From: an uncultured Collinsella sp.
GTDB lineage: Bacteria; Actinomycetota; Coriobacteriia; Coriobacteriales; Coriobacteriaceae
Direction: 5' to 3'
Length of the DNA stretch: 15,431 bases
Assembly (NCBI GenBank): GCA_938036665.1
Contig: CALHWR010000019.1
Location: forward strand, 1-15,431
The first letter of the stretch is position 1. Each line of letters opens with the position of its first letter. The notes below the pieces were generated by a model. That model saw nothing but the letters and a program-made list of their open reading frames with translations. It was not told the origin of the DNA and did no database searches. Shown here in pieces: positions 1-15,294 of this stretch. A program made the translations under genes and the position numbers.

Positions 1-1
1 C

Positions 2-1324
2 CTGTTCGGTGAGCTGACCGCCGAGGCCACCCGGTTTGACGGCTACGATATGCTGAGCGAGTCCGCCAAGGTCATCGCCCTGTCTGACGGCGAAGAGTTG
101 GCCGATGCCATCGCCACCGACGAGGCAGGCGAGAGCAAGGACGGTGTGCTGGTCGTGCTGGACCGCACCCCGTTCTACGCCGAGATGGGCGGCCAGCAGG
201 GTGACGCCGGCGAGCTTTCCGCCGAGGGCGTTGCGCTGACCGTTTCCGATACCAAGAACCACAACGGCCTGTATGCTCACGTCGCCCACGTCACCGAGGG
301 TACGCTGACCGTCGGTACTACCGTGACCGCCGCGCTCGACGCCGAGCGCCGTGGCTTCCTGCGTCGCAATCACACCGCCACGCACCTGCTCGACGCCGCG
401 CTTAAGCAGGTCCTGGGCGAGCATGTCTCCCAGGCTGGCTCGCTGGTGACGCCCGAGCACCTGCGCTTTGACTTCACGCACTTCGAGGCCCTGTCCTCCG
501 AGCAGCTCAAGGCTGTCGAGGACCTGGTCAACCAGCAGATCTTCGCCTCCAAGCCGGTCGTGACCCGCGTCATGGGCATCGACGAGGCCAAGGCCGCCGG
601 TGCTGTCGCCCTGTTTGGCGAGAAGTATGGCGACGTCGTCCGCGTTGTCTCCGTGGGCGCCGAGGACCAGCCGTTCTCCCGTGAGCTCTGCGGTGGCACC
701 CATGCTGCCAACACCGCCGAGATCGGCCTGTTCAAGATCATTTCCGAGTCCTCTACGGGCTCCAACGTCCGCCGCATTGAGGCCGTGACCTCTAAGGGTG
801 CTCTCGACTACATGGCCGACCGTCTGGCGCTCGTCGACGCCGCTGCTGCTGCGCTCAAGTGCCGTGTGGATGAGGTTCCCGCCCGCGTGGAAAACCTGCA
901 GGCTGAGCTGCGCGAGACGTCCAACAAGCTCAAGAAGGCACTCACCGGTGGCTCCTCTGATGCGATCTCCAGCGCCATCGAGGGCGCCGTCGAGCTCGAC
1001 GGCTACAAGCTCGTCGTCGCTGAGCTCCAGGGCCTTGAGGCCGCTGACCTGCGAAACGTCTGGGATACCGTGCACCAGAAGGTTGCCGGTCCTGTCGCCT
1101 GCGTCGTCGCCAGCGTGACTGAGAAGGGCACCCCGGCCCTGCTCGCCGCCGGCTCTGATGACGCTGTCAAGGCCGGTTTCCACGCCGGCAACGTGATCAA
1201 GCAGATCGCGGGCCTGGTCGACGGTCGCGGTGGCGGCCGTCCCAACATGGCCCAGGCCGGTGGCAAGAACGCCGCCGGCATCGCCGATGCCCTCGCGGCC
1301 GCTAAGACCGCGCTCGGCGCCTAA
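2..1324 (+). CDS. alaS: Alanyl-tRNA synthetase, C-terminal part (5' truncated by window edge)
   Basis: Alanyl-tRNA synthetase charges tRNA-Ala in the cytoplasm and hydrolyses mischarged Ser/Gly-tRNA-Ala. The frame is open from base 2 with no start, so the aminoacylation core lies outside the window. The visible start, TRFDGYD (about 32-52), is typical of the end of the tRNA-binding region. The editing domain carries the zinc motif HTATH at 371-385 and CGGTH at 689-703. A coiled segment follows (about 860-960), then the C-Ala (DHHA1-type) domain with its glycine motif GGGRP at 1229-1243 and the downstream MAQAGG. The product ends at a TAA (1322-1324), 17 bp before ruvX, so the genes are probably co-transcribed. 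The alaS-ruvX-mltG order is common in Actinobacteria and Firmicutes and supports the call. No frame damage is visible. Confidence 0.97.
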   Translation: MFGELTAEATRFDGYDMLSESAKVIALSDGEELADAIATDEAGESKDGVLVVLDRTPFYAEMGGQQGDAGELSAEGVALTVSDTKNHNGLYAHVAHVTEGTLTVGTTVTAALDAERRGFLRRNHTATHLLDAALKQVLGEHVSQAGSLVTPEHLRFDFTHFEALSSEQLKAVEDLVNQQIFASKPVVTRVMGIDEAKAAGAVALFGEKYGDVVRVVSVGAEDQPFSRELCGGTHAANTAEIGLFKIISESSTGSNVRRIEAVTSKGALDYMADRLALVDAAAAALKCRVDEVPARVENLQAELRETSNKLKKALTGGSSDAISSAIEGAVELDGYKLVVAELQGLEAADLRNVWDTVHQKVAGPVACVVASVTEKGTPALLAAGSDDAVKAGFHAGNVIKQIAGLVDGRGGGRPNMAQAGGKNAAGIADALAAAKTALGA

Positions 1325-1341
1325 GAATCTAGGTAATCGCT

Positions 1342-1770
1342 GTGGTCGCGCTTGCGCTGGACATAGGGGAGACCAGGATCGGCATCGCCGTCTCGAGCCG
1401 TGATGGCAAGATGGCGATGCCTGTCAAGGTGCTCCCGGCTGCAGAGGTCACCGGTATGGCCAAGACGTTCCGCTACCTGGTCGAGGACTATGAGCCCGAT
1501 ATCCTGGTAAGTGGGCGTCCCCTGACCATGGCCGGTGAGCCCGGTCCCCAGGCCGAGCGTGTTGCCGCTGTTGCGCAAAAGATTGCCGACGAGCTCGATC
1601 TTCCGTTGGAGTTTGAGGACGAGCGCCTGTCCTCGCAAGAGGCCAAGCGTATCCTGCGCGAGCAGGGCCTCAACGAAAAACAGATGAGGGGCAAGATTGA
1701 CATGATTGCCGCCAGCCTGTTTTTGCAGACGTGGCTTGATCGTAAAAACGAGGAGGTTTCGCATGCCTAG
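1342..1770 (+). CDS. ruvX: RuvX/YqgF family nuclease (putative pre-16S rRNA nuclease / Holliday junction resolvase)
   Basis: A 142-residue RNase H-like protein, normal for the family. YqgF/RuvX proteins process the 5' end of 16S rRNA and are also described as Holliday-junction resolvases. The acidic active-site set is present: D7 in LDIGETRIG, E94 in FEDERLSS and D120 in KIDMIAA. The conserved strand VSGRPLTMAGEPG is at about 57-68. The start is the GTG at 1342; an in-frame TAG at 1330-1332 excludes a start farther upstream, and only a weak AGG-like site precedes it, consistent with coupling to alaS. The last 8 bases overlap the start of mltG, whose ribosome binding site lies inside this gene. 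I see nothing unusual in the protein. Confidence 0.95.
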   Translation: MVALALDIGETRIGIAVSSRDGKMAMPVKVLPAAEVTGMAKTFRYLVEDYEPDILVSGRPLTMAGEPGPQAERVAAVAQKIADELDLPLEFEDERLSSQEAKRILREQGLNEKQMRGKIDMIAASLFLQTWLDRKNEEVSHA

Positions 1771-3196
1771 CGCTCCCGATCCGCGCCAGCCGAATCGTAC
1801 ACGTCAGCCGGCGTCGCGCCCTGCCCAGCCTGGCCAGCGTCCGGCACAGCCGACCCAGCGCGCAGCTCAGTCTGCCGCGCGCCCGGTGCAGTCCTCCTCT
1901 CGTTCGGCCCAACCTGTTCAACGGACGGGTCAGCAGCCTTCTGCTCGTTCGGTTCAGTATCCGGCTTCTCACGCGGCTCAGCAGCCCACTGCTCGTTCGG
2001 CTCAGCCTGCAGGCGGTGCTCGCTTTAAGCAACAGGCACCTACCCAGCGAACGCAGGTCCCCCAATCGCATTTGCATCACGCTCGCGGTTCGCATGGCGT
2101 TGCTCCGGCGACTCGCTCGAGCTACAACACGCATGCTCGTCGCGGTGCTCAAAAGAAGAGTTCTCCGGTTCCTATGATCATCGGCGTTGTGGTGGCCGTA
2201 ATTGCGCTTGCTACTATCGCTTTCTTTGTCGTGCCTGCCGTCAAGGGCTTCTTTGCCGGTGAGGATACGAAGGTCACGGCTGGTCAGCAGGTTACGGTGA
2301 CCATTCCCGACGGTGCTTCGGGTGATGCGATCGCCTCGATTCTCTCCGAGAACCATATCGTCGAAAATCCCAAGGATTACTACGCGGCGGTGAAAAAGCT
2401 CAACGCCGATATGTCGCTCAAGCCTGGTACTTATTCGTTCACCACACTCATGGATGCGACCAAGGTTGTTCAGCAGCTCATGGAAGGCCCCAACGCGGGC
2501 TCCAATGCGCTGACTATCCCTGAGGGTCTGACAGTCGATCAAGTCGCCGACCGCGTGGCCCAGGCCTACGACAGCATCTCTAAGGAAGACTTCCTCAACC
2601 AGGCCAAGGCCTCCAACTACGTGGACGACTATAGCTTCCTTAAGGGCGCCGCCAACGATTCGCTCGAGGGTTTCTTGTTCCCCAAGACCTATTCGTTGGG
2701 TGATTCGCCGACGGCCGATGACGTGATTCGTGCCATGCTCGATCAGTTTAAGACTGAGTACAAGTCGCTTGACTTTGCGAGCTGCGAAGCCAAGATCAAG
2801 GAGCGCTACGGTGTGGAGATGTCCGACTACGACATCGTTAACTTGGCCTCTATCGTTGAGCGCGAGGGCCTCAACGCCGATCAACGTGCGCACGTGGCCT
2901 CGGTCTTCTACAACCGCCTTGCCGGCAAGCTCGACGGTCTGCGCTATCTCAACAGCGATGCGACCATGATGTATGTCACCGGTGGCGAGGTTACCGCCGA
3001 CGACCTGCAGAGCGATAGCCCGTATAACACCTATAAGCACGAGGGCCTACCACCCACGCCCATCTGCTCTCCGTCGCTCGAGGCACTCAAGGCCACGCTT
3101 GAGCCGACCGACTCCGATGACCTGTATTTCTACATTACGCAGGACGAGGAGTACTTCTCGCAAACCTACGAAGAGCATCAACTGTCTTGGAATTAG
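1763..3196 (+). CDS. mltG: Endolytic transglycosylase MltG (YceG-like) with long disordered N-terminal tail
   Basis: MltG is a membrane-anchored enzyme that cleaves nascent peptidoglycan glycan strands and is thought to set their length. The ATG at 1763 is chosen because a perfect AGGAGG (1751-1756) sits 6 bp before it; the frame is open farther upstream but without a comparable site. This gives 477 residues, longer than the roughly 340 of E. coli. Residues 1-135 are Gln/Pro/Arg/Ser/Ala-rich, presumably disordered and cytoplasmic. One membrane segment covers about 136-160. The YceG catalytic domain follows, with ASIVEREG holding the expected catalytic Glu at residue 366, then FYNRL, LNSDATMMY and the SPYNTYKHEGLPPTPICSP block typical of the family. 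It overlaps ruvX by 8 bp and is 1 bp from the next gene. The catalytic assignment is by family; the role of the tail is unknown. Confidence 0.95.
   Translation: MPSAPDPRQPNRTRQPASRPAQPGQRPAQPTQRAAQSAARPVQSSSRSAQPVQRTGQQPSARSVQYPASHAAQQPTARSAQPAGGARFKQQAPTQRTQVPQSHLHHARGSHGVAPATRSSYNTHARRGAQKKSSPVPMIIGVVVAVIALATIAFFVVPAVKGFFAGEDTKVTAGQQVTVTIPDGASGDAIASILSENHIVENPKDYYAAVKKLNADMSLKPGTYSFTTLMDATKVVQQLMEGPNAGSNALTIPEGLTVDQVADRVAQAYDSISKEDFLNQAKASNYVDDYSFLKGAANDSLEGFLFPKTYSLGDSPTADDVIRAMLDQFKTEYKSLDFASCEAKIKERYGVEMSDYDIVNLASIVEREGLNADQRAHVASVFYNRLAGKLDGLRYLNSDATMMYVTGGEVTADDLQSDSPYNTYKHEGLPPTPICSPSLEALKATLEPTDSDDLYFYITQDEEYFSQTYEEHQLSWN
1931..2005 (+). repeat. Intragenic direct repeat (27 bp, two copies) in the mltG tail
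   Basis: Two copies of a 27-bp unit at 1931-1957 and 1979-2005 differ at three positions and start 48 bp apart. Both begin CAGCAG and contain CTGCTCGTTCGG. They encode the related peptides QQPSARSVQ and QQPTARSAQ inside the disordered N-terminal tail of MltG. The tail probably grew by local duplication. Confidence 0.8.
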
Positions 3197-3197
3197 C

Positions 3198-3695
3198 ATG
3201 AGGATTTTTAGCCCCAAACGATACGTTGCCTCGGTCGATCGCATCGACCTTGATACCCTGTGGGCCGACGGCAAACGCGCCATTCTGCTCGATCGCGATA
3301 ACACTCTGGTTCCGCGCGACACCGAGCAGGTTCCCGCCGCGGTTTCCGCTTGGCTCGATACCGCCCGCGCCAAAGGCTTTAAGCTGTGCATGGTGTCCAA
3401 CAACTGGCATCGCGATCAGGTCATGAGCTCTGCACGCGAGCTGGGACTCGAGGCCATCAGCCACGCCATGAAGCCCGCCCCGTTTGCCTTGAAGGCGGGT
3501 CTTAAGCGCCTTGGCGCCACGGCAGACGAGGCGGTGCTGATCGGCGATCAGCTGTACACGGACGTGTGGAGCGGTAACCTCGCCGGCGTTGACACTATTC
3601 TGGTCAAGCCGCAGGCGACCCAGGACCTGTGGTACACGCAGATCTTTCGTATCTTTGAGCGCCGGGCCCTGCGCGACCTTCCCTGCGAGGAATAG
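3198..3695 (+). CDS. YqeG family HAD IIIA-type phosphatase
   Basis: A 165-residue HAD-superfamily hydrolase, matching the YqeG group in length and layout. All four HAD motifs are visible: motif I DRDNT with nucleophile D32 and acid/base D34, motif II Ser67 in MVSNN, motif III Lys92 in MKPAPFAL, and motif IV GDQLYTD with D117 and D122. The N-terminal PKRYVASVDRIDLDTL resembles the family lead-in, which supports the ATG at 3198. The frame is open farther upstream but there it would overlap mltG. No clear Shine-Dalgarno site is seen; the 1-bp gap to the mltG stop suggests translational coupling. The physiological substrate of YqeG proteins is not well defined; phosphatidylglycerophosphate phosphatases are among their distant relatives, but I cannot assign that activity here. 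Confidence 0.9.
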   Translation: MRIFSPKRYVASVDRIDLDTLWADGKRAILLDRDNTLVPRDTEQVPAAVSAWLDTARAKGFKLCMVSNNWHRDQVMSSARELGLEAISHAMKPAPFALKAGLKRLGATADEAVLIGDQLYTDVWSGNLAGVDTILVKPQATQDLWYTQIFRIFERRALRDLPCEE

Positions 3696-3703
3696 GTTTC
3701 GCC

Positions 3704-4237
3704 ATGTCTCAGCACATCAAACACGGCTGCGACCATATCTTCTTTATCGGCTTTTTGGGCGCGGGCAAGTCGACGCTTGCGCGCAACGTGGGCACTATGT
3801 TCAAGCGTCGATTCATCGATACCGATCGTTTGGTTGTGCGTCGATGCGGCAAGTCGGTGACCGAGATATTTGATACCGAGGGCGAGGATCGTTTTCGCGA
3901 ACTCGAGACCTCGGCACTCCGTTCGCTTCAAAGCGAACGCAGCCTGCTGGTATCGTGCGGGGGCGGCATCGTCGAGACGCCGGTGAACATTGAACTGATG
4001 CACGAGATGGGTACATGCGTGTACCTCGAAGGCGACTTTGAGGACTCGTTGCGCCAGATTCGCCGTTCTGATACCCGGCCCGATTTCCGCTCGCCCGAGC
4101 ATGCTGCGCGCCTGTTTGAGCATCGCCGTCCGCTGTATCGCCAAGCCGCCGATATTACCCTTGATATTCGCAACAAGTCCTTCGAGGACGTTTCCTACCT
4201 TTGTGCCGAGATGCTTTTGGAGCGTGGACTGCTATGA
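3704..4237 (+). CDS. aroK: Shikimate kinase
   Basis: Shikimate kinase phosphorylates shikimate to shikimate-3-phosphate with ATP, in aromatic amino acid and folate precursor synthesis. The protein has 177 residues, the usual size. It shows the Walker A motif GFLGAGKST (16-24), the DTD motif (39-41) with the shikimate/Mg-contacting D41, the shikimate-binding R65 in FRELE, the glycine loop CGGGI (85-89), the lid arginine R125 in DTRPDF, and the adenine-side HRRPLYRQAAD segment. All key residues look intact, in contrast to the neighbouring AroB-like protein. The ATG at 3704 follows a GAGG-type site in the last codons of the previous gene. Its stop overlaps the start of the next gene in an ATGA arrangement, so the two are translationally coupled. 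Confidence 0.94.
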   Translation: MSQHIKHGCDHIFFIGFLGAGKSTLARNVGTMFKRRFIDTDRLVVRRCGKSVTEIFDTEGEDRFRELETSALRSLQSERSLLVSCGGGIVETPVNIELMHEMGTCVYLEGDFEDSLRQIRRSDTRPDFRSPEHAARLFEHRRPLYRQAADITLDIRNKSFEDVSYLCAEMLLERGLL

Positions 4238-5343
4238 TTCGCCGCCAACTTATCAATTTCCAAAACCGCAGTGTCGATGTCCGCGTCGGATTGGGCGCGT
4301 TCGAGGAACTGTCGCGCATGTTTGCCTCGGCTGTGGGCAAGCCTAAGCGCGCGATGGTGGTTTGGAACGACGCCACATCCGAGCGTTTTGGCGAGGCTGT
4401 CGAGCATGCGCTGGTTGACGCCGGTTTTGCCGTGTCGCTGCTCGTCCTCGAGGTTTCACCTGCTGGTGCTACGCTTGCCGATGCCGATACCGTCTTTGGC
4501 GCCCTGTCGGCTAACGGCATTACCTGCGACGATCTCGTTGTCGCTGTCGGCGACACGGCGACCTGCTCGGTCGTTTACTGGTGTGCCAATCAGTGGTGCG
4601 GTCGCACCGAGTGCGCCTTGCTGCCGACGACGTTCGACGCCATGCTCACGGTCGCGACGACCATGAAGCCCCTCGTCGCCTCGTCCGCGCATGCGCTTCC
4701 CGCTATCGCGTTCCGTCCCGAGCCGGGCTTGGTCGTGTGTGACCTCGACCTTGTTCGCGAGGCGGACCCCGAGGACCTCAAGCTCGGCTATGCGGTACTT
4801 GTTGGCACCATGCTTTCGAGCAGCAAGTCCCGCTGGAATCAGTTTACCGAGACCGTTCCCGAGATTCTCGCGGGCGAGGAGGTCGCGCTCGTCAATGCCG
4901 TTCAGTGGTCTCAGACTGCCCGCAAGGACGTACTGATGGCTACGAATCCCAGCGCCCGCCATGCGCTCGATTTTGGCAAGACGGGGGAGCGTACCCTGCG
5001 CGCCTGCTTGGGCGATGCCGCTTCGCAGGTGCCTGCCTACCAGCTGTTGTCCGAGGGCATGCGCTTTGAGGCGCGCCTAGCACACGATGCCTGCGACTTC
5101 GATATCGATTACGTCTTTGAGGTCGATGACTGCCTGGAGGACTTTGGTATCGAGGAGCTTGCCTTCGATCTGGAGCCTGCTGCATATATCGAGGAGTTCC
5201 GCAGGCAGCAGTTTGTCCGCTCGAACCGCAGCATGTTGCCGCTGCCCGCGGCACTCGGCGCCATTCGTTTAACGAGCGTTGAGGACGAGGTTCTCGACCG
5301 CCATGCTCACGCCTACTTGGCTTCTCGCAAAGAACTTCTCTAA
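4234..5343 (+). CDS. aroB: 3-dehydroquinate synthase (AroB) family protein lacking canonical catalytic residues
   Basis: The position next to aroK, the 369-residue length and the overall pattern match AroB, which cyclises DAHP to 3-dehydroquinate using NAD and a divalent metal. Fold-level landmarks remain: the opening VRVGLGAFEEL, LVVAVGDT (about 101-108), LLPTTFDAML (129-138), GLVVCDLDLV (about 168-177), LDFGKT (245-250) and SEGMRFEARLA (273-283). The catalytic signature is gone. The GGGVIGDLAGF-type loop reads VGDTATCSVVY. The GGKTG lysine loop after PTT is absent. The metal-binding Glu of the G-x-AE motif is V188. The GHTxGHA motif reads GKTGERT, and the HGExVA histidine is missing. The frame is intact, with codon use like its neighbours, and no other frame restores the motifs. 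The start ATG at 4234 overlaps aroK by 4 bp. I infer a pseudoenzyme or altered function; the symbol reflects family and context only. Confidence 0.75.
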   Translation: MIRRQLINFQNRSVDVRVGLGAFEELSRMFASAVGKPKRAMVVWNDATSERFGEAVEHALVDAGFAVSLLVLEVSPAGATLADADTVFGALSANGITCDDLVVAVGDTATCSVVYWCANQWCGRTECALLPTTFDAMLTVATTMKPLVASSAHALPAIAFRPEPGLVVCDLDLVREADPEDLKLGYAVLVGTMLSSSKSRWNQFTETVPEILAGEEVALVNAVQWSQTARKDVLMATNPSARHALDFGKTGERTLRACLGDAASQVPAYQLLSEGMRFEARLAHDACDFDIDYVFEVDDCLEDFGIEELAFDLEPAAYIEEFRRQQFVRSNRSMLPLPAALGAIRLTSVEDEVLDRHAHAYLASRKELL

Positions 5344-5349
5344 GATTTA

Positions 5350-5375
5350 TTGACATCCATCGTCTTTCGTATCAT
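5350..5375 (+). promoter_or_regulatory. Possible promoter before the M24 peptidase gene
   Basis: A perfect TTGACA at 5350-5355 is followed by TATCAT at 5370-5375. The spacer is only 14 bp, shorter than the usual 16-18, so the pairing is doubtful. An alternative -10 at 17 bp (CATGTT) is poor. The site lies just after the aroB-like stop and before the long hairpin at 5382, so a transcript from here would start close to that hairpin. Confidence 0.35.
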
Positions 5376-5381
5376 GTTGAG

Positions 5382-5443
5382 GGGCGGGTTTTCAATCGGT
5401 TGCGGATTGCATGCGATTCCATCGTTCGGTTGAGACCCGTCCC
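5382..5443 (+). other. Long imperfect hairpin between the AroB-like gene and the M24 peptidase gene
   Basis: Bases 5382-5398 (GGGCGGGTTTTCAATCG) pair with 5427-5443 (CGGTTGAGACCCGTCCC) over about 16 bp, including some G-U pairs, with one bulged base on each arm and a loop of about 28 nt. The 3' side is followed only by GTCTTTAT, not a strong T-run. It could be a weak terminator for the upstream operon, or a structured leader of the peptidase mRNA, which starts 33 bp downstream. Confidence 0.6.
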
Positions 5444-5475
5444 GTCTTTATGGAGACAACAAGAAAGGAATCTGC

Positions 5476-6606
5476 ATGTCTGAGTTTGCTGCCGGTCCTG
5501 CCGGTCGTATCGAGCGTGTCCGTGCCCTGATGGCTGAGCGCGGCTACGATGCTATCGTGGTGCGCGACGAGGCCAACCTTCGTTGGCTCACGGGCGTGAA
5601 GGGCGTCTTCGATTACACCTTCGAGTTCCCGCACGCTGCGTTTATTACGGCTGACCAGTGCCTGTTCCATACCGACTCGCGCTACCTCAACAGCTTTGAG
5701 GAGAACACGCCTGCCGGCAGCCCCTGGGTCTACGACATGGACGAAGGCACCATCCCCGGTTGGGTCGCCGGCAAGATCGCGGCCAACAAGTGCCGCGTCT
5801 GCGCTGTCGAGGACGACATGCAGATTAACTTCTACCAGGGTATTCAGCGTGGCCTTGAGGATCGTTCCGTCGCCTGCATGCTGCCGCTGATGCATGATGA
5901 CATTCGCAAGATGCGCGCCATCAAGGACGCCGAGGAGATCGAGCTCATGCGCCATGCGCAGTCGATTACCGACGCCGCCTTCCAGCACATGCTCGGATTT
6001 ATTAAACCCGGCATGACCGAGAAGCAGGTTCGCAACGAGCTCGAGAACTTTATGTTCGCCAACGGCGCCGACAGCTTGGCCTTCGGCTCCATCGTGGCGA
6101 GCGGCCCCAATACCGCCAACCCGCATGCCGTCCCGAGCGACCGCGTGATCGAGAAGGGCGACTTCGTTCTCATGGATTACGGCGCGGGCTACTGCGACTA
6201 TCGCTCCGATATGACGCGTACCGTCGTGATGGGCGAGCCCACGCAGGAGCAGCTCGACTTGTACGCGCTCGTGCGCCGTGCGCACGAGGAGTGCGTCGCC
6301 GCCATCCATCCGGGCGTCGAGGGCAACGACATTTTCAAGCTTTCCAAGAAGATCATTGGCGATGCCGGCTATGGCGATTACTACAACCATGGTCTGGGCC
6401 ACGGCGTGGGCATTGACATCCACGAGCTGCCCAACTTCAACCGCAGCAAGAATATCATCGAGGTCGGCTCGGTTATCACCATGGAGCCCGGCGTCTACCT
6501 GCCCGGCGTGGGCGGTGTGCGCCTGGAGGACTACGGCGTGGTCACCGAGAACGGCTACGAGCCCTTCACCAAGACGCCGCATGACCTTCACGTCATCGAT
6601 TGCTAG
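5476..6606 (+). CDS. M24 family metallopeptidase (Xaa-Pro aminopeptidase/dipeptidase type)
   Basis: A 376-residue cytoplasmic peptidase with the creatinase-type N-terminal domain (about 1-140) and the pita-bread catalytic domain (about 150-376). The five metal ligands expected for M24 enzymes are present: D234 and D245 in DYGAGYCDYRSD, H309 in GLGHGVGIDIHE, E337 in MEPGVYLP and E351 in RLEDYG. The substrate-side motif ASGPNTANPHAVPSD is also conserved. Such enzymes remove N-terminal residues before proline or split Xaa-Pro dipeptides; I cannot separate PepP from PepQ by sequence alone. The ATG at 5476 follows AAGAAAGGA (5461-5469). The gene is flanked by its own possible promoter and a strong terminator, so it is likely monocistronic. 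It precedes efp, as yqhT does in B. subtilis. Confidence 0.95.
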   Translation: MSEFAAGPAGRIERVRALMAERGYDAIVVRDEANLRWLTGVKGVFDYTFEFPHAAFITADQCLFHTDSRYLNSFEENTPAGSPWVYDMDEGTIPGWVAGKIAANKCRVCAVEDDMQINFYQGIQRGLEDRSVACMLPLMHDDIRKMRAIKDAEEIELMRHAQSITDAAFQHMLGFIKPGMTEKQVRNELENFMFANGADSLAFGSIVASGPNTANPHAVPSDRVIEKGDFVLMDYGAGYCDYRSDMTRTVVMGEPTQEQLDLYALVRRAHEECVAAIHPGVEGNDIFKLSKKIIGDAGYGDYYNHGLGHGVGIDIHELPNFNRSKNIIEVGSVITMEPGVYLPGVGGVRLEDYGVVTENGYEPFTKTPHDLHVIDC

Positions 6607-6629
6607 TCTACTTCGGTAGATAGTTTGGG

Positions 6630-6672
6630 GCGGGGCCTCCGGAGCAATTCGGACGCCCCGCGTTCTCTTTTT
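6630..6672 (+). terminator. Rho-independent terminator after the M24 peptidase
   Basis: GCGGGGC (6630-6636), one mismatched base and TCCG (6638-6641) pair with CGGA (6650-6653), one base and GCCCCGC (6655-6661). The loop is 8 nt. The stem is followed by GTTCTCTTTTTAT. It lies 24 bp after the peptidase stop codon and before the efp promoter. Confidence 0.9.
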
Positions 6673-6703
6673 ATGCGCCCGCTGCAGGCGCCGTCTGCAA
6701 GTG

Positions 6704-6709
6704 TATAAT
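6704..6709 (+). promoter_or_regulatory. -10 box of the efp operon promoter
   Basis: A perfect TATAAT, with TG immediately upstream, lies 57 bp before the efp start and just past the upstream terminator. No good -35 is seen at 17 bp (GCTGCA), so the -10 box carries the call. It is the only strong promoter-like element ahead of the efp to recN run. Confidence 0.65.
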
Positions 6710-6766
6710 TTCGCTCGTATGTAATTTGGACGCTTGTGCGTTCTGCCCATAACAAGAAAGGTCGCT

Positions 6767-7330
6767 ATGCCTACCATTTCTACCGCCGACTTCAAGAACG
6801 GCCTCGGTCTCCGCATTAAGGACAAGGTCTACACCATCGTCGAGTTCCAGCATGTCAAGCCGGGCAAGGGCGGCGCGTTTGTGCGCTACAAGACCCGCGA
6901 CATCAAGAGCGGCCGCGTCGTCGAGAACACCTGCAACGCCGGCACCAAGTTCGAGAGCGTCATGCTCACCACCCGTGAGTTCCAGTACCTCTACAACGAT
7001 GGCACCGACTACATCTTCATGGACAACGAATCCTATGAGCAGGTTCCCGTTCCCGAGGACATGGTGGGCGAGAACTCCAAGTGGCTGCGCGAGAACGACA
7101 TCTGCCAGCTGCTCTTCGCCGACGATGAGCTCATGGGCGTGACTCCGCCGATGTTCATCGAGACCACCATCGTCCAGACCGACCCGGGCTTTAAGGGCGA
7201 CACCGTCCAGGGTTCCACCAAGCCGGCCACGATCGACACCGGCGCTGTCATCCAGGTCCCCATGTACCTCAACGAGGGCGAGGTCATCAAGGTTGACACC
7301 CGCGACGGCAAGTTCTTCTCCCGCGTCTAG
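6767..7330 (+). CDS. efp: Translation elongation factor P
   Basis: EF-P binds between the P and E sites of stalled ribosomes and helps form peptide bonds at consecutive prolines. The protein has 187 residues, the standard length. It has the KOW-like N-terminal domain (about 1-62), a central OB domain (about 65-125) and a C-terminal OB domain (about 130-187). The functional loop is KPGKGGAF, with the tip lysine at K34, the same position as the beta-lysylated K34 in E. coli. No modification enzyme is encoded in this window. The ATG at 6767 is chosen because MPTISTADFKNGL is the canonical N-terminus and AAGAAAGG precedes it; an in-frame start at 6734 would add a non-homologous leader. It is the first gene of the run to recN, and 24 bp separate it from the next. 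Confidence 0.97.
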   Translation: MPTISTADFKNGLGLRIKDKVYTIVEFQHVKPGKGGAFVRYKTRDIKSGRVVENTCNAGTKFESVMLTTREFQYLYNDGTDYIFMDNESYEQVPVPEDMVGENSKWLRENDICQLLFADDELMGVTPPMFIETTIVQTDPGFKGDTVQGSTKPATIDTGAVIQVPMYLNEGEVIKVDTRDGKFFSRV

Positions 7331-7354
7331 CAACCAACTCTTCTAGGAGGACTC

Positions 7355-7717
7355 ATGCCCCAGGAAATCAAGATTGACGGCATCGGCATTTCGCCCGATG
7401 TTCTGACCGCCATCGTCTCGCGCGCCGTGTCCGATGTCGAGGGCATCGCCTCCGTTGGCGTCAAGGACCTTGCCACCAACCTTGTCTCCATGATGCTCTC
7501 GTCCAAGGCCCCGGCTTCCGAGCCGGCGGTCGAGGCCGAGGTCGTCGGCGACAAGCTCGCACTCACCGTGCGCGTTGTGGTGTTCTTTGGCTATCCGTTC
7601 AAGAAACTCGCCGAGGCCGTTCGCGCCGCTGTAGTCGCCGCCATCGATGCCCAGGTGGGTGTCGAGGTCGAGCGCGTTGACGTTTGTATCGACGGCCTCG
7701 TTTTCCCCAAGGAGTAA
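7355..7717 (+). CDS. Asp23/Gls24 family envelope stress response protein (YqhY-like)
   Basis: A 120-residue single-domain Asp23/Gls24 (DUF322) protein. Typical features are the opening IDGIGISPDVLTAIVSRAVSDVEGIASVG, the middle strand LALTVRVVVFFGYPFKKLAEAVR and the C-terminal VGVEVERVDVCIDGLVF. It starts 13 bases after a strong TAGGAGGA (7344-7351 region). The gene lies directly before nusB, as yqhY does in B. subtilis, where YqhY has been linked to control of acetyl-CoA carboxylase. No accB or accC gene is present here, so that link cannot be assumed. There is no signal peptide or membrane segment, so it is probably cytoplasmic. The exact function is unknown. Confidence 0.9.
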   Translation: MPQEIKIDGIGISPDVLTAIVSRAVSDVEGIASVGVKDLATNLVSMMLSSKAPASEPAVEAEVVGDKLALTVRVVVFFGYPFKKLAEAVRAAVVAAIDAQVGVEVERVDVCIDGLVFPKE

Positions 7718-7720
7718 CCT

Positions 7721-8308
7721 TTGAGCCTTAAGGTTTATCGCGGGCGCACGCTTGCCCGCAGTCAGGCGCTGCAGCTGCTGTTCCAGGCCGAGGCCACGGA
7801 CAGCCCGCTCGAGCGCGTCCTCGAGGGCGATTTCCTGATCTCGAAGGGCCCCCTCGACCCCTATGCACTGGAGTTGTGCCGCGGTGCCTACGAGCATATC
7901 GATCGCATCGACTGCGCTCTGCGCTCCGTTGCCAAGAACTGGGATCTTATGCGCATGCCCGGCGCCGACCGCAATCTGCTGCGTATCGCCGTCTACGAGA
8001 TGCGCTTCCTCACCGACGAAGAGGTCTCGGACGCTATCGTGATCAACGAGGCCGTCGAACTTGCCAAGGCCTATGGCACCGACCAGTCCGCGTCGTTCGT
8101 CAACGGCGTGCTGGGCAAGATCGCGCGCAGCGAGGAGTTGCCGGGCGAGGACCTGTACCAGGAACTGCTGGCCGAGGATCGCGCTCGCGAGGAGGTCCAG
8201 GCTGCTGAGGCTGCCGCCAAGGTCGCTGCCGCTCAGGCTACCGCCGGTGTACTTGCCGAGGATGTGGACGCTGCTGAGGCCGTCGAGGCCGACTCCGTCG
8301 AGGAGTAG
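7721..8308 (+). CDS. nusB: Transcription antitermination factor NusB with Ala/Glu-rich C-terminal extension
   Basis: NusB forms a complex with NusE (S10) that binds boxA RNA and supports antitermination at rRNA operons. The all-helical core is clear: GRTLARSQALQLLFQAEA near the N-terminus, then IDCALRSVAKNWDLMRMPGADRNLLRIAVYEMRFL, then VINEAVELAKAYGTDQSASFVNGVLGKIA ending near residue 136. The remaining roughly 57 residues are Ala/Glu/Asp/Val-rich and probably disordered; typical NusB proteins are about 130-160 residues, so this one (195) is long. The start is a TTG at 7721 with AAGGAG at 7709-7714. No better in-frame start retains the conserved N-terminus. It lies 3 bp after the Asp23-family stop and 2 bp before xseB. 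Confidence 0.95.
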   Translation: MSLKVYRGRTLARSQALQLLFQAEATDSPLERVLEGDFLISKGPLDPYALELCRGAYEHIDRIDCALRSVAKNWDLMRMPGADRNLLRIAVYEMRFLTDEEVSDAIVINEAVELAKAYGTDQSASFVNGVLGKIARSEELPGEDLYQELLAEDRAREEVQAAEAAAKVAAAQATAGVLAEDVDAAEAVEADSVEE

Positions 8309-8310
8309 CC

Positions 8311-8550
8311 ATGCCAGAGGGTTCTGTCCGCAACTTTGACGAGATTTCGGACCGTCTGGACCAGATCATCGCTACCGTTCGCTCCAAGGATACGTCCTTG
8401 GAGCGTTCACTCGATCTGTTTGACGAAGCGATTGAGCTGGGCTCCCGCGCGGTCGATATGGTCGACAAGTTTGAGCTGACGCCGCGTGAGGCCGATAAGC
8501 TCGAGCAGGAATACGATGAGGATGCGGCAAACGAATCCCAGGATAGCTAG
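8311..8550 (+). CDS. xseB: Exodeoxyribonuclease VII small subunit
   Basis: The small subunit of ExoVII, a single-strand-specific exonuclease that needs the large subunit XseA. The protein has 79 residues. The family helix-turn-helix core is visible: NFDEISDRLDQIIATVRSKDTSLERSLDLFDEAIELGSRAVDMVDKFE, followed by an acidic tail. The ATG at 8311 is 2 bp after the nusB stop, and GAGGAG (8300-8305), inside the end of nusB, serves as its binding site. The large subunit gene xseA is usually adjacent but is not in this window. Confidence 0.9.
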   Translation: MPEGSVRNFDEISDRLDQIIATVRSKDTSLERSLDLFDEAIELGSRAVDMVDKFELTPREADKLEQEYDEDAANESQDS

Positions 8551-8576
8551 GCCGCATCTCCGGATACGAATGGTTG

Positions 8577-9389
8577 ATGGCATTCATGAAACGCGTGCGT
8601 CTTGATGACGAACTGATTTCACAGGGCATCTGCGCCGATCGCGCGGATGCCCTTCGCACTCTTATGGCCGGCTTGGTCTCGAGCGGCGGCGAGCGCTTGA
8701 CTTCGCCGGGGCTTAAGGTGACCCCGGGTCTGCCGCTGCACGTGAAGGGGCGCATTCCCTATGTTGGCCGCGGCGGTCTTAAGCTCGAAGGCGCGCTTGA
8801 TGCGTTTGGCATCAATCCGACGGGCCTTAGCTGTCTGGATGTGGGCTGCTCTACCGGCGGCTTTACCGATTGCCTGCTCAAGCACGGAGCTGCGACCGTT
8901 ATCTCGGTGGACGTGGGTCGCGCACAGTTCGATTGGTCGTTGCGTCAGGATGATCGCGTGACGCTGCATGAGCGCACAAACGTGACGCAGCTGCCTGAGC
9001 TTGGCTATGCCGGTGCCATCGACCTGGCTGTATGTGATGTCTCGTTTACCGGCATCGCGAATATCATCGACGCCGTGCTGGCGTGCCTGAAGCCTTCGGG
9101 TTCGTTCTGCACGCTCGTAAAGCCCCAGTTTGAGGCGCCGGCTGCGCTGGTGGGCGAGCGCGGTATCGTGACCGACCCCGCCGTCCGCCGCGATACGCTC
9201 GTGGCGGCGATTGAGCTTTTTGCCGCCAAGGGCCTGTTCCCGCTTGACGTGTGCGTGTCGCCCATCCATGGCGCTAAGGGCAACGTTGAGTTTTTCCTGT
9301 ACGGCACAAGGTTTGCCCCTGGTGAACGCACCGACGATGAGCTGCAATCCCAGGTATCGGCTTTGAGCGAGAAAGCTGCAACGCTATGA
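8577..9389 (+). CDS. tlyA: TlyA family rRNA 2'-O-methyltransferase
   Basis: TlyA (YqxC in B. subtilis; often called hemolysin A) is a SAM-dependent methyltransferase that methylates ribose 2'-O positions in 16S and/or 23S rRNA, and its loss can give capreomycin resistance. The protein has 270 residues: an S4 RNA-binding domain (about 4-63) followed by an FtsJ-like Rossmann domain. The SAM loop is LDVGCSTGGF (87-96). The catalytic K-D-K-E set is K69 (GGLKL), D154 (VCDVSF), K182 (VKPQFE) and E238 (GNVEFF). The start is uncertain: ATG 8577 is used, but TTG 8574 and ATG 8586 are possible and none has a clear binding site. The stop overlaps nadK by 4 bp (ATGA). Confidence 0.93.
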   Translation: MAFMKRVRLDDELISQGICADRADALRTLMAGLVSSGGERLTSPGLKVTPGLPLHVKGRIPYVGRGGLKLEGALDAFGINPTGLSCLDVGCSTGGFTDCLLKHGAATVISVDVGRAQFDWSLRQDDRVTLHERTNVTQLPELGYAGAIDLAVCDVSFTGIANIIDAVLACLKPSGSFCTLVKPQFEAPAALVGERGIVTDPAVRRDTLVAAIELFAAKGLFPLDVCVSPIHGAKGNVEFFLYGTRFAPGERTDDELQSQVSALSEKAATL

Positions 9390-10246
9390 AGGTCTTTCTG
9401 GTTCCCAATTACTACAAGCAAGAGGCGGTCGAGAGCGGCCTGATGCTCGAGCTTTGGCTTTCGCGCCAGGGCTACGAGGTCGCATGGGCTGCCGACCAGC
9501 GATCGAAGATTCAAAGCGCGCCTGATATTGATGGCTCAGATCTGGTCATTACGCTCGGCGGCGACGGTACGTTGCTGCGCGCTGCCCGCATCCTCAACCA
9601 TCGCGAGATTCCTATCCTTGGTCTTTCCTATGGTCACCTGGGCTTTTTAACGGCCGCGAGCCCCGAGGAGCGCGACATTTTGCAGGTTGTGAGCGATGCC
9701 CTGTCCGGCGAGCTCCACGTGAGCCGCCGCGCCACCATCGCCGCCGATATCGTTTCGGTGCGCGAAGATGGCACGAAGGATGTCGTGCGCACGTTTGCCC
9801 TCAACGATATGGCACTTACGCGCGGACCTCTTTCCGATATGGTCGAATTTGACATCACGGTTTCCGGCCATCATATCGATCGCCTGCGCGGTGACGGTGT
9901 CGTCGTGTCGACGGCGACTGGCTCTACCGGCTATGCGCTTTCCGCCGGCGGCCCCATCGTCAGCCCCGATTACACGGGTATGGTCTGTGTGCCCATCGCT
10001 CCGCATACCATTCAGGCTCGCGCTTTTTTGACCTCGCCGAGTGATGTCGTCGAGATCTTTATGTCCGATGATCGTCCGAGCGTGCCGGCGATTGCCATCG
10101 ACGGACAGTTTATTACCTGCGATGGCACGGTCGAGAGCGTGGCGGTGCGTCGCGGTCCCGGCGATGTGTTGCTGCTGGATTACGGCCCCGAGAGCTTCTA
10201 TAACTCGGTGAGCCGCGTGTTCTACGGAGTGCGTCATGATCGATGA
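9386..10246 (+). CDS. nadK: NAD kinase
   Basis: NAD kinase phosphorylates NAD to NADP in the cytoplasm. The protein has 286 residues, normal size. The GGDGT motif is at 58-62, followed by LLRAAR. The substrate-pocket motif N140-D141 is in ALNDMALTRG; Asp replaces the more common Glu, which is tolerated in the family. The glycine-rich GDGVVVSTATGSTGY (169-183) and the VPIAPHTIQAR segment (202-212) are conserved. The start overlaps tlyA by 4 bp and the end overlaps recN by 11 bp, so all three are probably translated in a coupled way. The tlyA-nadK-recN order is frequent in Clostridia and Coriobacteriia-like genomes. Confidence 0.95.
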   Translation: MKVFLVPNYYKQEAVESGLMLELWLSRQGYEVAWAADQRSKIQSAPDIDGSDLVITLGGDGTLLRAARILNHREIPILGLSYGHLGFLTAASPEERDILQVVSDALSGELHVSRRATIAADIVSVREDGTKDVVRTFALNDMALTRGPLSDMVEFDITVSGHHIDRLRGDGVVVSTATGSTGYALSAGGPIVSPDYTGMVCVPIAPHTIQARAFLTSPSDVVEIFMSDDRPSVPAIAIDGQFITCDGTVESVAVRRGPGDVLLLDYGPESFYNSVSRVFYGVRHDR

Positions 10247-11864
10247 GCTGCAGGTTTCTAACATTGCACTCATTCGTGAGGCGACGCTGGTTCCGAGTGC
10301 TGGCCTGACTGTCCTGACCGGCGAGACCGGTGCCGGTAAGACCGCGCTGCTTTCGGCGCTCAAGCTCATATTGGGCGAGCGTGCAGATTCGTCGACGGTG
10401 CGCGAGGGAGAGGAGCTTGCCAGCGTCGAGGCGCGCTTGTTCGATGGCCCGCACGACTCGGAGGGTTTCACCGTGCAGCGCAGCCTTTCTGCCGAAGGCC
10501 GCAGTCGCGTAAAAATTGACGGCCGCATCGCCAGCGTGCGTGAGCTTTCGGAGCGCGTCGGCGTCATGATGGATCTTTGCGGTCAGCACGAGCACCAGCG
10601 CTTGCTCGATCCGGCGCATCATGTTGCCATGGTCGATGCCTGGGCTGGACGCGCAGCGCATGAGGCGCTCGAGAAGTATCGCGCCTGTTTTAAGGCTTCG
10701 CGTGACGCCGCCAAGGAGCTTCGCCGTGTGGAGGAAGCCTCGCGTGCGCAGGGGAGCCGTGTCGAGGAGGCTCGCTTTGCCCTCGAGCGCATCGGCGCGG
10801 TCGACCCCAAGCCGGGCGAGTATGAGGAACTCGAGGAACTGCTGCCGCGCTCCGAACATGCCGAGGTTCTGGTTGCCACAGCTAACGATGCCCATGCATC
10901 GCTTGTCGCCGAAGGGGGAGCGCTCGATGCCGTGAACAGCGCCGTGGCAGAGCTTTCCCGTATGGCTACCGTCGATCGCAAACTGGGCGACATTGCTGAT
11001 GCGCTTTCGGATGCCTGTATCTCCCTTGAGGATAGCGCGAACGAGCTTCGTGCCTATCGCGATGGCGTCGCCTTCGACCCGCGCGAGCTCGCTCGCATGC
11101 GTGAGCGGTATTCCGACCTCAAGGGCCTGTTGCGTCAGTGGGGTCCCACCATGGACGATGTTTTTGCCATGCGCGATCGCTCGCAAGAGCTGCTGTCCTT
11201 GGTCGATGATGGCGATGAACAGATCAAAAAGGCGCGTGAATCACTTGGTGCTGCCGAGCGCGAGTTGTTTGCCGCTGCCAAGGCGCTTAAGCGCGCTCGC
11301 AATACGGCTGCCCCGCGCTTCTGCCACGAGGTTGGTCGTCAGATGGCACGCTTGGAGATGGGCGGCGCCGAGCTCGTTTGGGAGTCGCGTGATCTTCCGC
11401 GCGCCGAGTGGACGCCGGCGGGTCCTTCGAGCTACGAGCTTTTGTATCGCAGCGGTGCCGGCTTGACGCCGCGACCCCTGCGCCGCATTGCGTCGGGCGG
11501 CGAGCTCAGCCGCGTTATGCTGGCGAGCAAAGTGGTCTTGGGTAATGCTGACGGCGTCGACACACTGGTATTTGACGAGGTCGATGCCGGCGTCGGCGGC
11601 TCCACGGCTCGTGCTCTTGCTGGCGTGCTGGCCGATCTTGCCGCTACGCATCAAGTGATTGTCGTAACCCACTTGGCGCAAGTCGCCGTCATGGCCGACA
11701 AGCATTATGTTGTCAGCAAGGAGCCGGGCGATGTTCCCCAGACGCATTTGGACGAGGTAACCGGCGAAGCGCGTACCGCCGAGATCGCCCGCATGCTCAG
11801 CGGCGATCAGTCCGAGGCAAGCTTGGCCCACGCAAAGCAGATGCTCGAAGAAGTTCGAGGCTAG
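10236..11864 (+). CDS. recN: DNA repair protein RecN
   Basis: RecN is an SMC-like ATPase recruited early to DNA double-strand breaks. The protein has 542 residues, against about 553 in E. coli. The N-terminal head has the opening IDELQVSNIALI and Walker A GETGAGKT (29-36), followed by MMDLCGQHEHQRLLD. A coiled-coil middle spans roughly 140-370. The C-terminal head has the ABC signature ASGGELSRVMLASK (419-432), Walker B TLVFDEVD with D447/E448, and the H-loop QVIVVTHLAQVA. The ATG at 10236 has GGAG (10226-10229) upstream and overlaps nadK by 11 bp. It is the last gene of the efp run and converges on the regulator gene that follows. There is no sign of a LexA box at this internal position. Confidence 0.96.
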   Translation: MIDELQVSNIALIREATLVPSAGLTVLTGETGAGKTALLSALKLILGERADSSTVREGEELASVEARLFDGPHDSEGFTVQRSLSAEGRSRVKIDGRIASVRELSERVGVMMDLCGQHEHQRLLDPAHHVAMVDAWAGRAAHEALEKYRACFKASRDAAKELRRVEEASRAQGSRVEEARFALERIGAVDPKPGEYEELEELLPRSEHAEVLVATANDAHASLVAEGGALDAVNSAVAELSRMATVDRKLGDIADALSDACISLEDSANELRAYRDGVAFDPRELARMRERYSDLKGLLRQWGPTMDDVFAMRDRSQELLSLVDDGDEQIKKARESLGAAERELFAAAKALKRARNTAAPRFCHEVGRQMARLEMGGAELVWESRDLPRAEWTPAGPSSYELLYRSGAGLTPRPLRRIASGGELSRVMLASKVVLGNADGVDTLVFDEVDAGVGGSTARALAGVLADLAATHQVIVVTHLAQVAVMADKHYVVSKEPGDVPQTHLDEVTGEARTAEIARMLSGDQSEASLAHAKQMLEEVRG

Positions 11865-11881
11865 GTCGTATCAGCGGTGTT

Positions 11882-11903
11882 GGTGGGAAATTTTTGTCCC
11901 ACT
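11882..11903. terminator. Candidate hairpin terminator between convergent recN and the regulator gene
   Basis: GTGGGA (11883-11888) pairs with TCCCAC (11897-11902) around an 8-nt AT-rich loop. A G-T pair can extend it by one. It lies in the 46-bp gap between two convergent genes. No strong T-run follows on either strand (only TTTT at 11909-11912 on plus), so termination efficiency is uncertain. Confidence 0.45.
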
Positions 11904-11910
11904 ACGCGTT

Positions 11911-12768
11911 TTACTCAACGACCTTGTCCGGCTGGATGAGCTCCTCGTAGTAGCTGATATGTTCGCGAGCGTCTTCAATCTCGGGCAGCAGGAAGTTGTA
12001 GATAACTTCGATGATCATCGTGGCGCTGATCTTGGAGAACGCAAAGTCACCCGTCGTCAGCAGCGCCTCGTGGTTGACGGTATTAAAAGTGTAGTCTGCC
12101 AGGCGCGCGAGTGGAGACTTGCTGTCGCTGCTGATGACGACTACGGTGGCACCGCAGTCGCGAGCCGCTTTTGCCATGCGATTCAGTCGGCGCGACTTGC
12201 CGGAGTTTGAGATGAGCACGATGACGTCACCCGGGCGCAACGTGAGCGCAAAGCCGATTGATGTCTCGCTAATGGTGCTCGCCATGCAGCGCAGGCCCAG
12301 CTGCGAAAACTTAAACGTCGCATCGAGCGCGACCGCGTTCGTATTGCCCACAGCCGCAAACTCAATAACTCCTGCATGCTTAAGGGCATGCACAACAGCC
12401 GCCAACGTATCGTGGTCGATCCCGTCGATGGTCGCATTAAGCTCGCTCACCTTGGCAGCCAGGATGTTCTTAAGGCTCTGCTCCATATTGTCGAGCGAGA
12501 CTTCGTCAGTCAGGCCCTCGTTGCGCTGGCTTTCCAAATCCCTCGCCAACGAAAACTGAAAGCTGCGGAAGCTGCCAAAGCCAAGCTTGCGGCAGAAGCG
12601 CGAAACGGTCGCCTCGGACGTGGCGGCGGCGCGCGAGAGCTGAGCCGCCGTGAGGCGTGGCGCCTCGGACTGGTGCTCCAATATATAGTCGACAATACGC
12701 TGCTCGGACTCGCTGTATCCCTGATGGGTACTAATGAGGGAAAGTGCGCTCTTGCTACTATCGGTCAT
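11911..12768 (-). CDS. MurR/RpiR family transcriptional regulator (HTH plus SIS)
   Basis: A 285-residue regulator with an N-terminal HTH_6 domain (about 5-80; recognition region LTAAQLSRAAATSEATVSRFCRKLGF at 39-64) and a C-terminal sugar-isomerase (SIS) domain (about 125-255) that binds phosphosugars. The SIS phosphate-binding loop is ISNSGKS (186-192). The ATG at 12768 is chosen because an AGGAG lies 6 bp upstream on this strand. An in-frame ATG at 12816 lacks a binding site and sits against the -10 box. The gene diverges from the PTS permease with a 272-bp gap, which suggests that it controls that permease in response to the phosphorylated sugar, and probably itself. Whether it represses or activates is not shown by the sequence. 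Confidence 0.93.
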   Translation of the reverse strand: MTDSSKSALSLISTHQGYSESEQRIVDYILEHQSEAPRLTAAQLSRAAATSEATVSRFCRKLGFGSFRSFQFSLARDLESQRNEGLTDEVSLDNMEQSLKNILAAKVSELNATIDGIDHDTLAAVVHALKHAGVIEFAAVGNTNAVALDATFKFSQLGLRCMASTISETSIGFALTLRPGDVIVLISNSGKSRRLNRMAKAARDCGATVVVISSDSKSPLARLADYTFNTVNHEALLTTGDFAFSKISATMIIEVIYNFLLPEIEDAREHISYYEELIQPDKVVE

Positions 12769-12816
12769 GGATGGCTCCTGGTTGGCATGAAAATCGGACT
12801 CGTTTTGTAATGTCAT

Positions 12817-12822
12817 AGTATA
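12817..12822 (-). promoter_or_regulatory. -10 box for the MurR/RpiR regulator
   Basis: On the minus strand this reads TATACT, 48 bp before the chosen regulator start. No convincing -35 is found at 16-18 bp. The next upstream minus-strand sequence is AT-rich (TTGTAATTGAAAAT) after a C-run. Confidence 0.45.
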
Positions 12823-12849
12823 GGGGGATTTTCAATTACAAGATACACC

Positions 12850-12877
12850 TTGCCGTTTCAAGTGTTGATGGTAAACT
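12850..12877 (+). promoter_or_regulatory. Possible PTS promoter
   Basis: TTGCCG (12850-12855) and TAAACT (12872-12877) are separated by 16 bp. Both boxes are partial matches. The -10 overlaps the first CTTTCACC element at 12876, which would fit repression. Other pairings in this gap are no better. Confidence 0.3.
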
Positions 12878-12967
12878 TTCACCTACCGTTTACGGTTATG
12901 AAAGAACCTTTCACCGGAGAATTGCGCCTTGTCTCTTCTCACGCGGACGGTAGGTTGGTATCTTTCA
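12876..12967 (+). promoter_or_regulatory. Cluster of CTTTCA/TGAAAG elements, candidate operators in the divergent gap
   Basis: CTTTCACC occurs at 12876-12883 and again at 12908-12915, exactly 32 bp apart (about three helical turns). TGAAAG at 12899-12904 forms a perfect dyad with the second copy across three bases (TGAAAG-AAC-CTTTCA). Another CTTTCA lies at 12962-12967, and TTTCA also occurs at 12856-12860. A near-palindrome ACCGTTTACGGT (12885-12896 region) and the pair GTAAAC/GTTTAC lie between them. The arrangement between a regulator and its likely target permease suggests binding sites for the divergent MurR/RpiR protein. Confidence 0.55.
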
Positions 12968-12978
12968 GTTGTGGAAAA

Positions 12979-13018
12979 GCGCGCAAGGACGCGCGTGTAG
13001 GGGAGCGCCTGCGGGCGC
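12979..13018 (+). other. Two adjacent GC hairpins in the PTS mRNA leader
   Basis: GCGCG (12979-12983) pairs with CGCGC (12990-12994) with a 6-nt loop. GCGCC (13005-13009) pairs with GGCGC (13014-13018) with a 4-nt loop. They end 12 bp before the GGAGGG binding site (13031-13036). No T-run follows, so they are not terminators on their own. They may stabilise the leader or be chance GC structure. Confidence 0.4.
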
Positions 13019-13040
13019 AAAACTTAAAAAGGAGGGACAC

Positions 13041-15044: not shown

Positions 15045-15079
15045 TTCCGCAGTACGCGAATAACATCGCCCCCTGTAAC

Positions 15080-15115
15080 AAAGGCGAGGACTCCCTACGG
15101 GTCCTCGCCTTTTTT
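15080..15115 (+). terminator. Strong rho-independent terminator after the PTS gene
   Basis: AAGGCGAGGAC (15081-15091) pairs perfectly with GTCCTCGCCTT (15101-15111) around a 9-nt loop, followed by an unbroken T-run to 15115. It lies 36 bp after the PTS stop codon and shows that the permease is the last gene of its transcript. Confidence 0.95.
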
Positions 15116-15123
15116 CATACCAC

Positions 15124-15177
15124 CCGGCACTCAGGGACGTTCCTTTCCTGCCGGCACCCCGGGACACTCCTTAGTCC
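15124..15177. repeat. Imperfect 27-bp tandem repeat, two units
   Basis: Units at 15124-15150 and 15151-15177 share CCGGCAC, then GGGAC, then TCCTT at the same offsets (GGCAC at 15126 and 15153; GGGAC at 15134 and 15161). They differ mainly in the spacer bases. The sequence is non-coding as far as I can tell. It resembles a dispersed intergenic element, but this window holds only this one cluster. Confidence 0.7.
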
Positions 15178-15294
15178 CCGACAGGGCATAAATAGCCCTC
15201 ATCGACTGAATCACCCACGCGAACAATAATTCAGCCAGAATTCCTTTTGCACGATATTTCTTGGACGGAAGCATGTTCCCGCAGCTCGCCCGCC

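Follow-up and report, generated by a model that had tools for sequence, protein, structure and literature searches.

A dead and selected paralogue of 3-dehydroquinate synthase, retained mostly beside a kinase gene in two families of Coriobacteriia

The stretch of DNA analysed here, hereafter the window, comprises 15,431 nucleotides from an uncultured Collinsella sp. (contig CALHWR010000019.1, positions 1 to 15,431), and encodes a protein, AroB2, that has the fold of 3-dehydroquinate (DHQ) synthase, AroB, without its catalytic centre. AroB2 is almost certainly a dead, superseded and selected paralogue of AroB. Its gene and the sites within it that carry this conclusion are as follows.

4234..5343, plus strand: AroB2, AroB-fold protein without catalytic centre, 369 amino acids, defined from the open reading frame, profiles, PDB search, model and alignment
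4795..4797, plus strand: codon of V188, which aligns with the metal-ligand Glu
4975..4995, plus strand: GKTGERT, residues 248-254, aligned where canonical AroB has GHTxGHA
5053..5076, plus strand: EGMRFEAR, residues 274-281, a helix signature common to AroB2 and ancestral-site AroBs

No Pfam family matched AroB2 above its cut-off, and the NCBIfam aroB model TIGR01357 aligned to residues 15-354 at 45.5 bits, short of the cut-off of 305; an AroB from the ancestral site discussed below (L058) scored 354.6 bits. The top matches in a sequence search of the PDB were AroB chains (E 0.0013), and an AlphaFold model from a 93-sequence alignment was confident (predicted local distance difference test score, pLDDT, 96.1 / 0.93), with DHQ synthases as its best matches. 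Catalytic residues were compared in an alignment of 178 sequences, comprising 42 canonical AroBs of the class, 135 AroB2 rows (132 distinct, some from one species) and an odd old-site copy, L064, left out of the canonical set; L066 and L089 were left out of the consensus row and L167 was dropped wholly. Canonical residues are numbered as in L052, and the second number is that of the window protein. The three metal ligands, invariant in 42/42 canonical sequences, are all replaced (Glu185 by V188, His250 by K249, His266 by A268), and the complete Glu/His/His set occurs in none of the 135 AroB2 rows, where single ligands linger (Glu in 6, the first His in 5, the second His in 1, with a pair in one row). 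Further canonical invariants (42/42) changed in the window are H254 (R253), N247 (D246), K188 (G191), D110 (S112), D137 (T139), K152/N153 (H153/P156), E74/K77 (P76/A79) and D322/K323/K324 (Q325/Q326/F327). Of the GGG loop that binds nicotinamide adenine dinucleotide (NAD) the window keeps G106, followed by D107/T108; Asp110, which follows this loop, is kept in 0/135 rows, and the substrate-binding Lys/Asn/Lys set and DKK loop are gone. Canonical Arg243, by contrast, is retained as R242 in 128/135 rows, and Lys229 is R230 in 125/135. AroB2 also has fixed residues of its own (R4, S112, W121, R230, N331 and R332); C122 (116/135) is its sole new conserved Cys, and the 135 rows hold no new conserved His or Glu of catalytic look. 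The catalytic roles assigned here, including a substrate-anion site at R242 and R230, are those which we take AroB structures to have established, a literature search for the numbering of the metal ligands having yielded nothing. Because the catalytic residues are absent and the confident model best matches DHQ synthases, AroB2 is, as judged from alignment and prediction, a protein that retains the fold and has lost the chemistry. The first-pass annotation had stated that all canonical motifs were replaced: this is correct for the metal, NAD and DKK sites, and too strong in that R242 is kept, R230 is a conservative change, and K145 aligns with canonical Lys143 (a Lys kept in only 4/135 rows). 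Its view that the protein is not a standard DHQ synthase is borne out by the metal ligands; its suggestion of a repurposed cyclase finds no support, given the loss of both metal and NAD sites.

The breadth and selection of AroB2 were assessed together with the genes around it.

3198..3695, plus strand: HAD phosphatase, presumably of YqeG type, upstream anchor of the locus
3704..4237, plus strand: AroK2, shikimate-kinase-family protein with catalytic residues kept and RPL of the LID motif replaced by RPD (D127)
4234..4237, plus strand: ATGA, the 4-base overlap of the AroK2 stop and AroB2 start
5476..6606, plus strand: pepP, presumably of Xaa-Pro peptidase type, downstream anchor of the locus

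The AroB2 reading frame is intact and full-length, with no internal stop. The window organism belongs to the aerofaciens group of Collinsella, and the nearest genome compared has 53% of sampled 31-mers in common with it; statements on its aromatic pathway are accordingly drawn from the genomes of close relatives. AroB2 proteins 89-98% identical are encoded at 19 loci of named Collinsella records, with the same gene order in relatives, which rules out mobile DNA or an odd strain. Searched with P0001, 34 of 35 genomes of the genus gave AroB2 at 280 bits or more, and a 43-sequence profile found it in open frame over nearly its whole length in 63 of 65 genomes of family f1. The exceptions are G028 (72% complete), without AroB2, and G375, a probable misassembly in which pieces of AroB2, HAD, ruvX and alaS are scrambled (L167) and AroC is split likewise. 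Family f5 corresponds to the Atopobiaceae if names like those given to P0150 and P0270 are followed. Of its 140 genomes, 139 yielded an AroB2 match of at least 140 bits, where the highest-scoring canonical copy listed reached 127 bits; the listed ranges show five of these matches to be partial. Conservation in f1 rules out a chance reading frame, a frameshift or the sequencing error that the first-pass annotation had named as a possible refutation. An apparent AroK2::AroB2 natural fusion (P0237) was left unused, as its kinase part seems out of frame, probably through an assembly or sequencing frameshift. The ratio of non-synonymous to synonymous substitution rates (dN/dS) in the C. aerofaciens group was 0.094 for AroB2, 0.031 for AroK2, 0.024 for pepP and 0.042 for HAD (n=19 each); canonical AroB (n=16) gave 0.060. 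AroB2 is under purifying selection, as had been proposed from its clean frame, and that selection is weaker than on neighbouring genes. The 4-base overlap recurs in 40 of 41 f1 loci read, the window counted and starts picked by script, and would couple the translation of AroK2 and AroB2; between window positions 3100 and 5600 a promoter scan found no promoter-like site, and terminators were no commoner than chance.

The origin of AroB2 is supported by several lines of comparison: it derives from the AroB that ancestrally occupied the ruvX-mltG-HAD ... pepP-efp site. At seven outgroup loci the sole canonical AroB adjoins pepP-efp, at two of them (G052 and G046) within a full aroE-aroC-aroK-aroB-aroQ run. 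E274, R277, F278, D298 and H357 are common to AroB2 and ancestral-site AroBs (14/14) and, one D excepted, are lacking in 25 second-operon AroBs; in an unrooted tree a branch marked 100 separates AroB2 and ancestral-site copies from the second-operon copies, with which three relatives fall. A canonical AroB above 305 bits is present as a second gene in 34/35 genus genomes, so that the check for a second aroB raised by the first-pass annotation came out positive in relatives. An operon of aroB, aroA, aroC, an aroE::aroK fusion and aroQ was read in G001, G033, G021, G002, G039 and G047, which tells against the proposal that AroB2 belongs to a changed aromatic pathway. The aroE::aroK fusion gene of the canonical Collinsella operon lies at 13545-14795 of L052. 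It is likewise supported that lineages with the complete second operon have lost aroE, aroC and aroQ from the old site, and that AroB2 lost metal, NAD and most substrate residues while its fold, reading frame and position, and purifying selection on it, were maintained in both families. The states form a series: only the old copy, two intact copies (G050, each with all motifs), old copy partly dead (G040), dead but selected, and pathway lost. In G040, which has the second aro operon, the old-site copy L064 (7307-8395), with no kinase adjoining, has A for the metal Glu, Q for the first His and an incomplete DKK loop, with two His kept; it is either an intermediate or an independent case. Separately, a very divergent AroB2 in G042 (L066, family f8) adjoins an AroK whose LID motif is the ancestral RPLL, and a search of G042 for canonical AroB gave no match.

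The adjoining kinase has followed a different course. AroK2 keeps the Walker A motif, two Asp, FR, GGG, the LID Arg and the Arg before PLY of shikimate kinases in 62-64 of 64 sequences, S/T and A/S swaps within the P-loop being set aside. Of the 64 sequences, 62 have D immediately after the LID Arg-Pro, one has E and one has L. All 12 ancestral AroKs have L at this position, and the seven fusion kinases that were read have a hydrophobic residue, the other five of the twelve having been left out for want of a P-loop match. In the Mycobacterium tuberculosis enzyme (MtSK), Pro118 and Leu119 belong to the lipophilic region of the shikimate-binding pocket, according to the accessible part of a review (PMC7144000), and all but one of the AroK2 sequences lack a hydrophobic residue at the Leu119 position. 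Since this lipophilic leucine is replaced by an acidic residue, a changed substrate is plausible. The earlier description of a normal shikimate kinase therefore fits the catalytic residues, and not the LID pocket position. AroK2 stands apart from fusion kinases and ancestral AroKs in a tree (branch marked 97, with long-branch warnings); NCBIfam shikimate kinase cut-offs proved uninformative, as two ancestral AroKs also fell below them. A kinase match outside the aroE fusion was found in 64/65 f1 genomes, and AroK2 in 124/140 f5 genomes.

That AroB2 outlives the aromatic pathway in some genomes is also supported. No chorismate synthase match was found in five of 140 f5 genomes (G271, G317, G318, G319 and G373) or in two of 65 f1 genomes (G205 and G030). 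We did not count G319, which is 57% complete, or G030, whose kinase-fusion match lies in a 24,363-residue 'open frame' suggestive of a run of N; the five counted genomes all retain AroB2. G205 is a single 2.1-Mb contig, 99% complete, in which AroK2 is the sole shikimate kinase, and the neighbours of recN, where the aro operon lies in G033, G021 and G002, are presumably RNase J-type and FtsK-type genes; pathway loss there is read from chorismate synthase, kinase and operon-site evidence. AroK2 is also kept as the sole shikimate kinase in G318 and G373, and no match to shikimate kinase was obtained in G271 or G317. Matches of 5-enolpyruvylshikimate-3-phosphate (EPSP) synthase type number one each in G271, G317, G318 and G373, where we take them as MurA, likewise one in G366, which has part of an AroC, and two in G265 and G174.

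AroB2 also persists without AroK2, which is absent from 16/140 f5 genomes, 15 of them with AroB2. Twelve loci read in six genera run HAD, AroB2, pepP, with no kinase match between HAD and pepP, and some AroK2-less loci have a prepilin-peptidase-like gene in that interval. A small membrane-protein gene with a GxGDxK motif, presumably prepilin-peptidase-like, lies between HAD and AroK2/AroB2 in L053, L072, L111, L158 and L160 (f5). Among four g36 genomes, all without AroK2, dN/dS was 0.15-0.38 for AroB2 and 0.085-0.27 for pepP, a ratio of about 1.3-1.9 compared with 3.9 in Collinsella; AroB2 thus remains under constraint among these four.

We lean towards a reading in which AroB2 is a selected pseudoenzyme with a non-catalytic job, binding an anion and signalling to, or scaffolding, a partner. 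It probably functions outside the shikimate pathway, and the chance that it is a ligand-binding or regulatory protein, not a new enzyme, is somewhat better than even. The second aro operon would have superseded the ancestral AroB, and the old copy, turned non-catalytic, would have been retained to work without catalysis. Its old cleft may bind an acidic or phosphorylated metabolite, anion binding being likeliest because R242 and R230 are kept and R4, W121, N331 and R332 are newly fixed. Ligand-loaded AroB2 would then act on its partner, in most genomes the co-translated AroK2, which, with its acidic LID residue, may handle a substrate other than shikimate. A more tentative extension, which we think could well be wrong, is that AroK2 and AroB2 form a two-protein module, as yet undescribed, in two families of Coriobacteriia, in which a retuned kinase acts on a new substrate with the dead DHQ synthase as its ligand-binding partner; the module would have been assembled from the ancestral aro cluster once the second operon freed it, and would persist without aromatic biosynthesis. 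Several observations weigh against the pseudoenzyme reading. AroB2 changes more quickly than the genes around it (dN/dS 0.094 vs 0.024-0.042, and vs 0.060 for canonical AroB), and its identity to the window across the family is 41-49%, compared with 69-80% for AroK2. It is dispensable in G174 (f5), which has the canonical copy only and lost both AroB2 and AroK2 with the aromatic pathway intact. Of the five genomes lacking the pathway, four are draft assemblies with a completeness of 79-94%, and the AroB2 of the 1.0-Mb genome G271 is very divergent, with most signature residues lost and no NCBIfam model matched. In g36, AroB2 compared with that of G145 of the same genus gave dN/dS of 0.59-0.73, and D15 and R17 are lost in 6/6 genomes, C122 and R345 in 5/6; for these reasons part of the constraint on AroB2 may depend on AroK2. 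On relaxed selection after AroK2 loss, the high values against G145 and the low AroB2/pepP ratio among the four g36 genomes point in opposite directions. Ancestral-site AroBs do not form one group in the tree, and the tree branches of L066 and of the kinase fusions are long; Pfam and NCBIfam scans found no DNA-binding domain in AroB2 or AroK2.

If AroK2-AroB2 instead regulated aromatic biosynthesis, with AroB2 sensing a pathway intermediate and tuning AroK2 in the manner of the AROM-derived QutR, the adjacent, overlapping genes of f1 and the prevalence of a separate kinase would be explained, and a fungal precedent exists (PMC10512348, accessible part); we nonetheless regard this as unlikely, given AroB2 in five genomes without a chorismate synthase match, one a near-complete single contig, and in 12 loci without AroK2. 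The earlier proposal of a regulatory partner of AroK is possible in itself, and the same loci make it insufficient as a full account. Equally improbable is an enzyme with new metal- and NAD-free chemistry on the AroK2 product: R4, S112, W121, R230, N331 and R332, with the altered LID, would be in keeping with two successive steps acting on a novel substrate, but a catalytic-looking new conserved His or Glu is absent, C122 is the lone new conserved Cys, and AroB2 evolves fast and survives AroK2 loss. A slowly decaying relic, kept by chance or by polar effects on pepP-efp, would accord with dN/dS above that of neighbours, the loss in G174, the divergent copy in G271 and the high values against G145. 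Near-full-length frames in 63/65 genomes, presence in 139/140, a dN/dS of 0.094, a pLDDT of 96 and new fixed residues are not expected of decay, and make this explanation very improbable. That AroB2 retains DHQ synthase activity through metal ligands moved elsewhere in the protein is scarcely credible; two residues of the substrate site, R242 and R230, persist, but no row has three ligands, the NAD and DKK loops are gone, and 34/35 genus genomes carry canonical AroB.

The favoured reading, a selected pseudoenzyme, has partial parallels. AroB itself (TIGR01357; solved as 3okf, 5eks and 6lk2) is like AroB2 in fold, length, locus, descent and R242, and unlike it in having the metal-ligand set, NAD loop and catalytic lysines. 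The fungal repressors QutR, GaaX and TanX are homologous to the shikimate kinase, DHQ dehydratase and shikimate dehydrogenase part of AROM, QutR repressing quinate use, and, as proposed for AroB2, represent a shikimate-pathway enzyme turned regulator whose gene adjoins that of its partner, as set out in the accessible part of the source (PMC10512348). They differ in being fungal, transcription-factor based and derived from other domains; AroB2 comes from DHQ synthase, has no attached domain, and the AroK2-AroB2 locus has no adjoining transcription factor, its immediate neighbours being HAD and pepP. Plant SKL1 and SKL2 are also old shikimate-pathway duplicates that lost their original activity, and occur in all major plant lineages (PMC2593004, accessible part). 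Those proteins arose from shikimate kinase and lost its activity, whereas here kinase residues are kept and DHQ synthase residues lost. BzdR is, as we take it, a benzoyl-CoA-responsive regulator with a shikimate-kinase-like domain. It exemplifies a bacterial enzyme fold turned sensor (PMC3602430, accessible part); AroK2, which has NF006015 among its weak NCBIfam matches, differs in lacking a DNA-binding domain. Searches of the open-licence literature in PubMed Central turned up no description of AroB2. If the reading is true, a bacterial DHQ synthase has become a pseudoenzyme kept across two families, and the surviving intermediate states allow what becomes of a displaced metabolic enzyme to be tested. 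AroB2 also matters for annotation, because some copies (P0129, P0150 and P0270) are labelled 3-dehydroquinate synthase or synthetase in their sources, and such labels could inflate the apparent completeness of genomes that lack the pathway.

The window as a whole reads, by gene names that we assume from sequence, alaS (end), ruvX, mltG, HAD phosphatase, AroK2, AroB2, pepP and efp, followed by an Asp23-type gene, nusB, tlyA, nadK and recN. Towards its end, a presumed RpiR-type regulator gene (11911-12816, minus strand) adjoins a presumed fructose-type phosphotransferase system gene (12969-15044).
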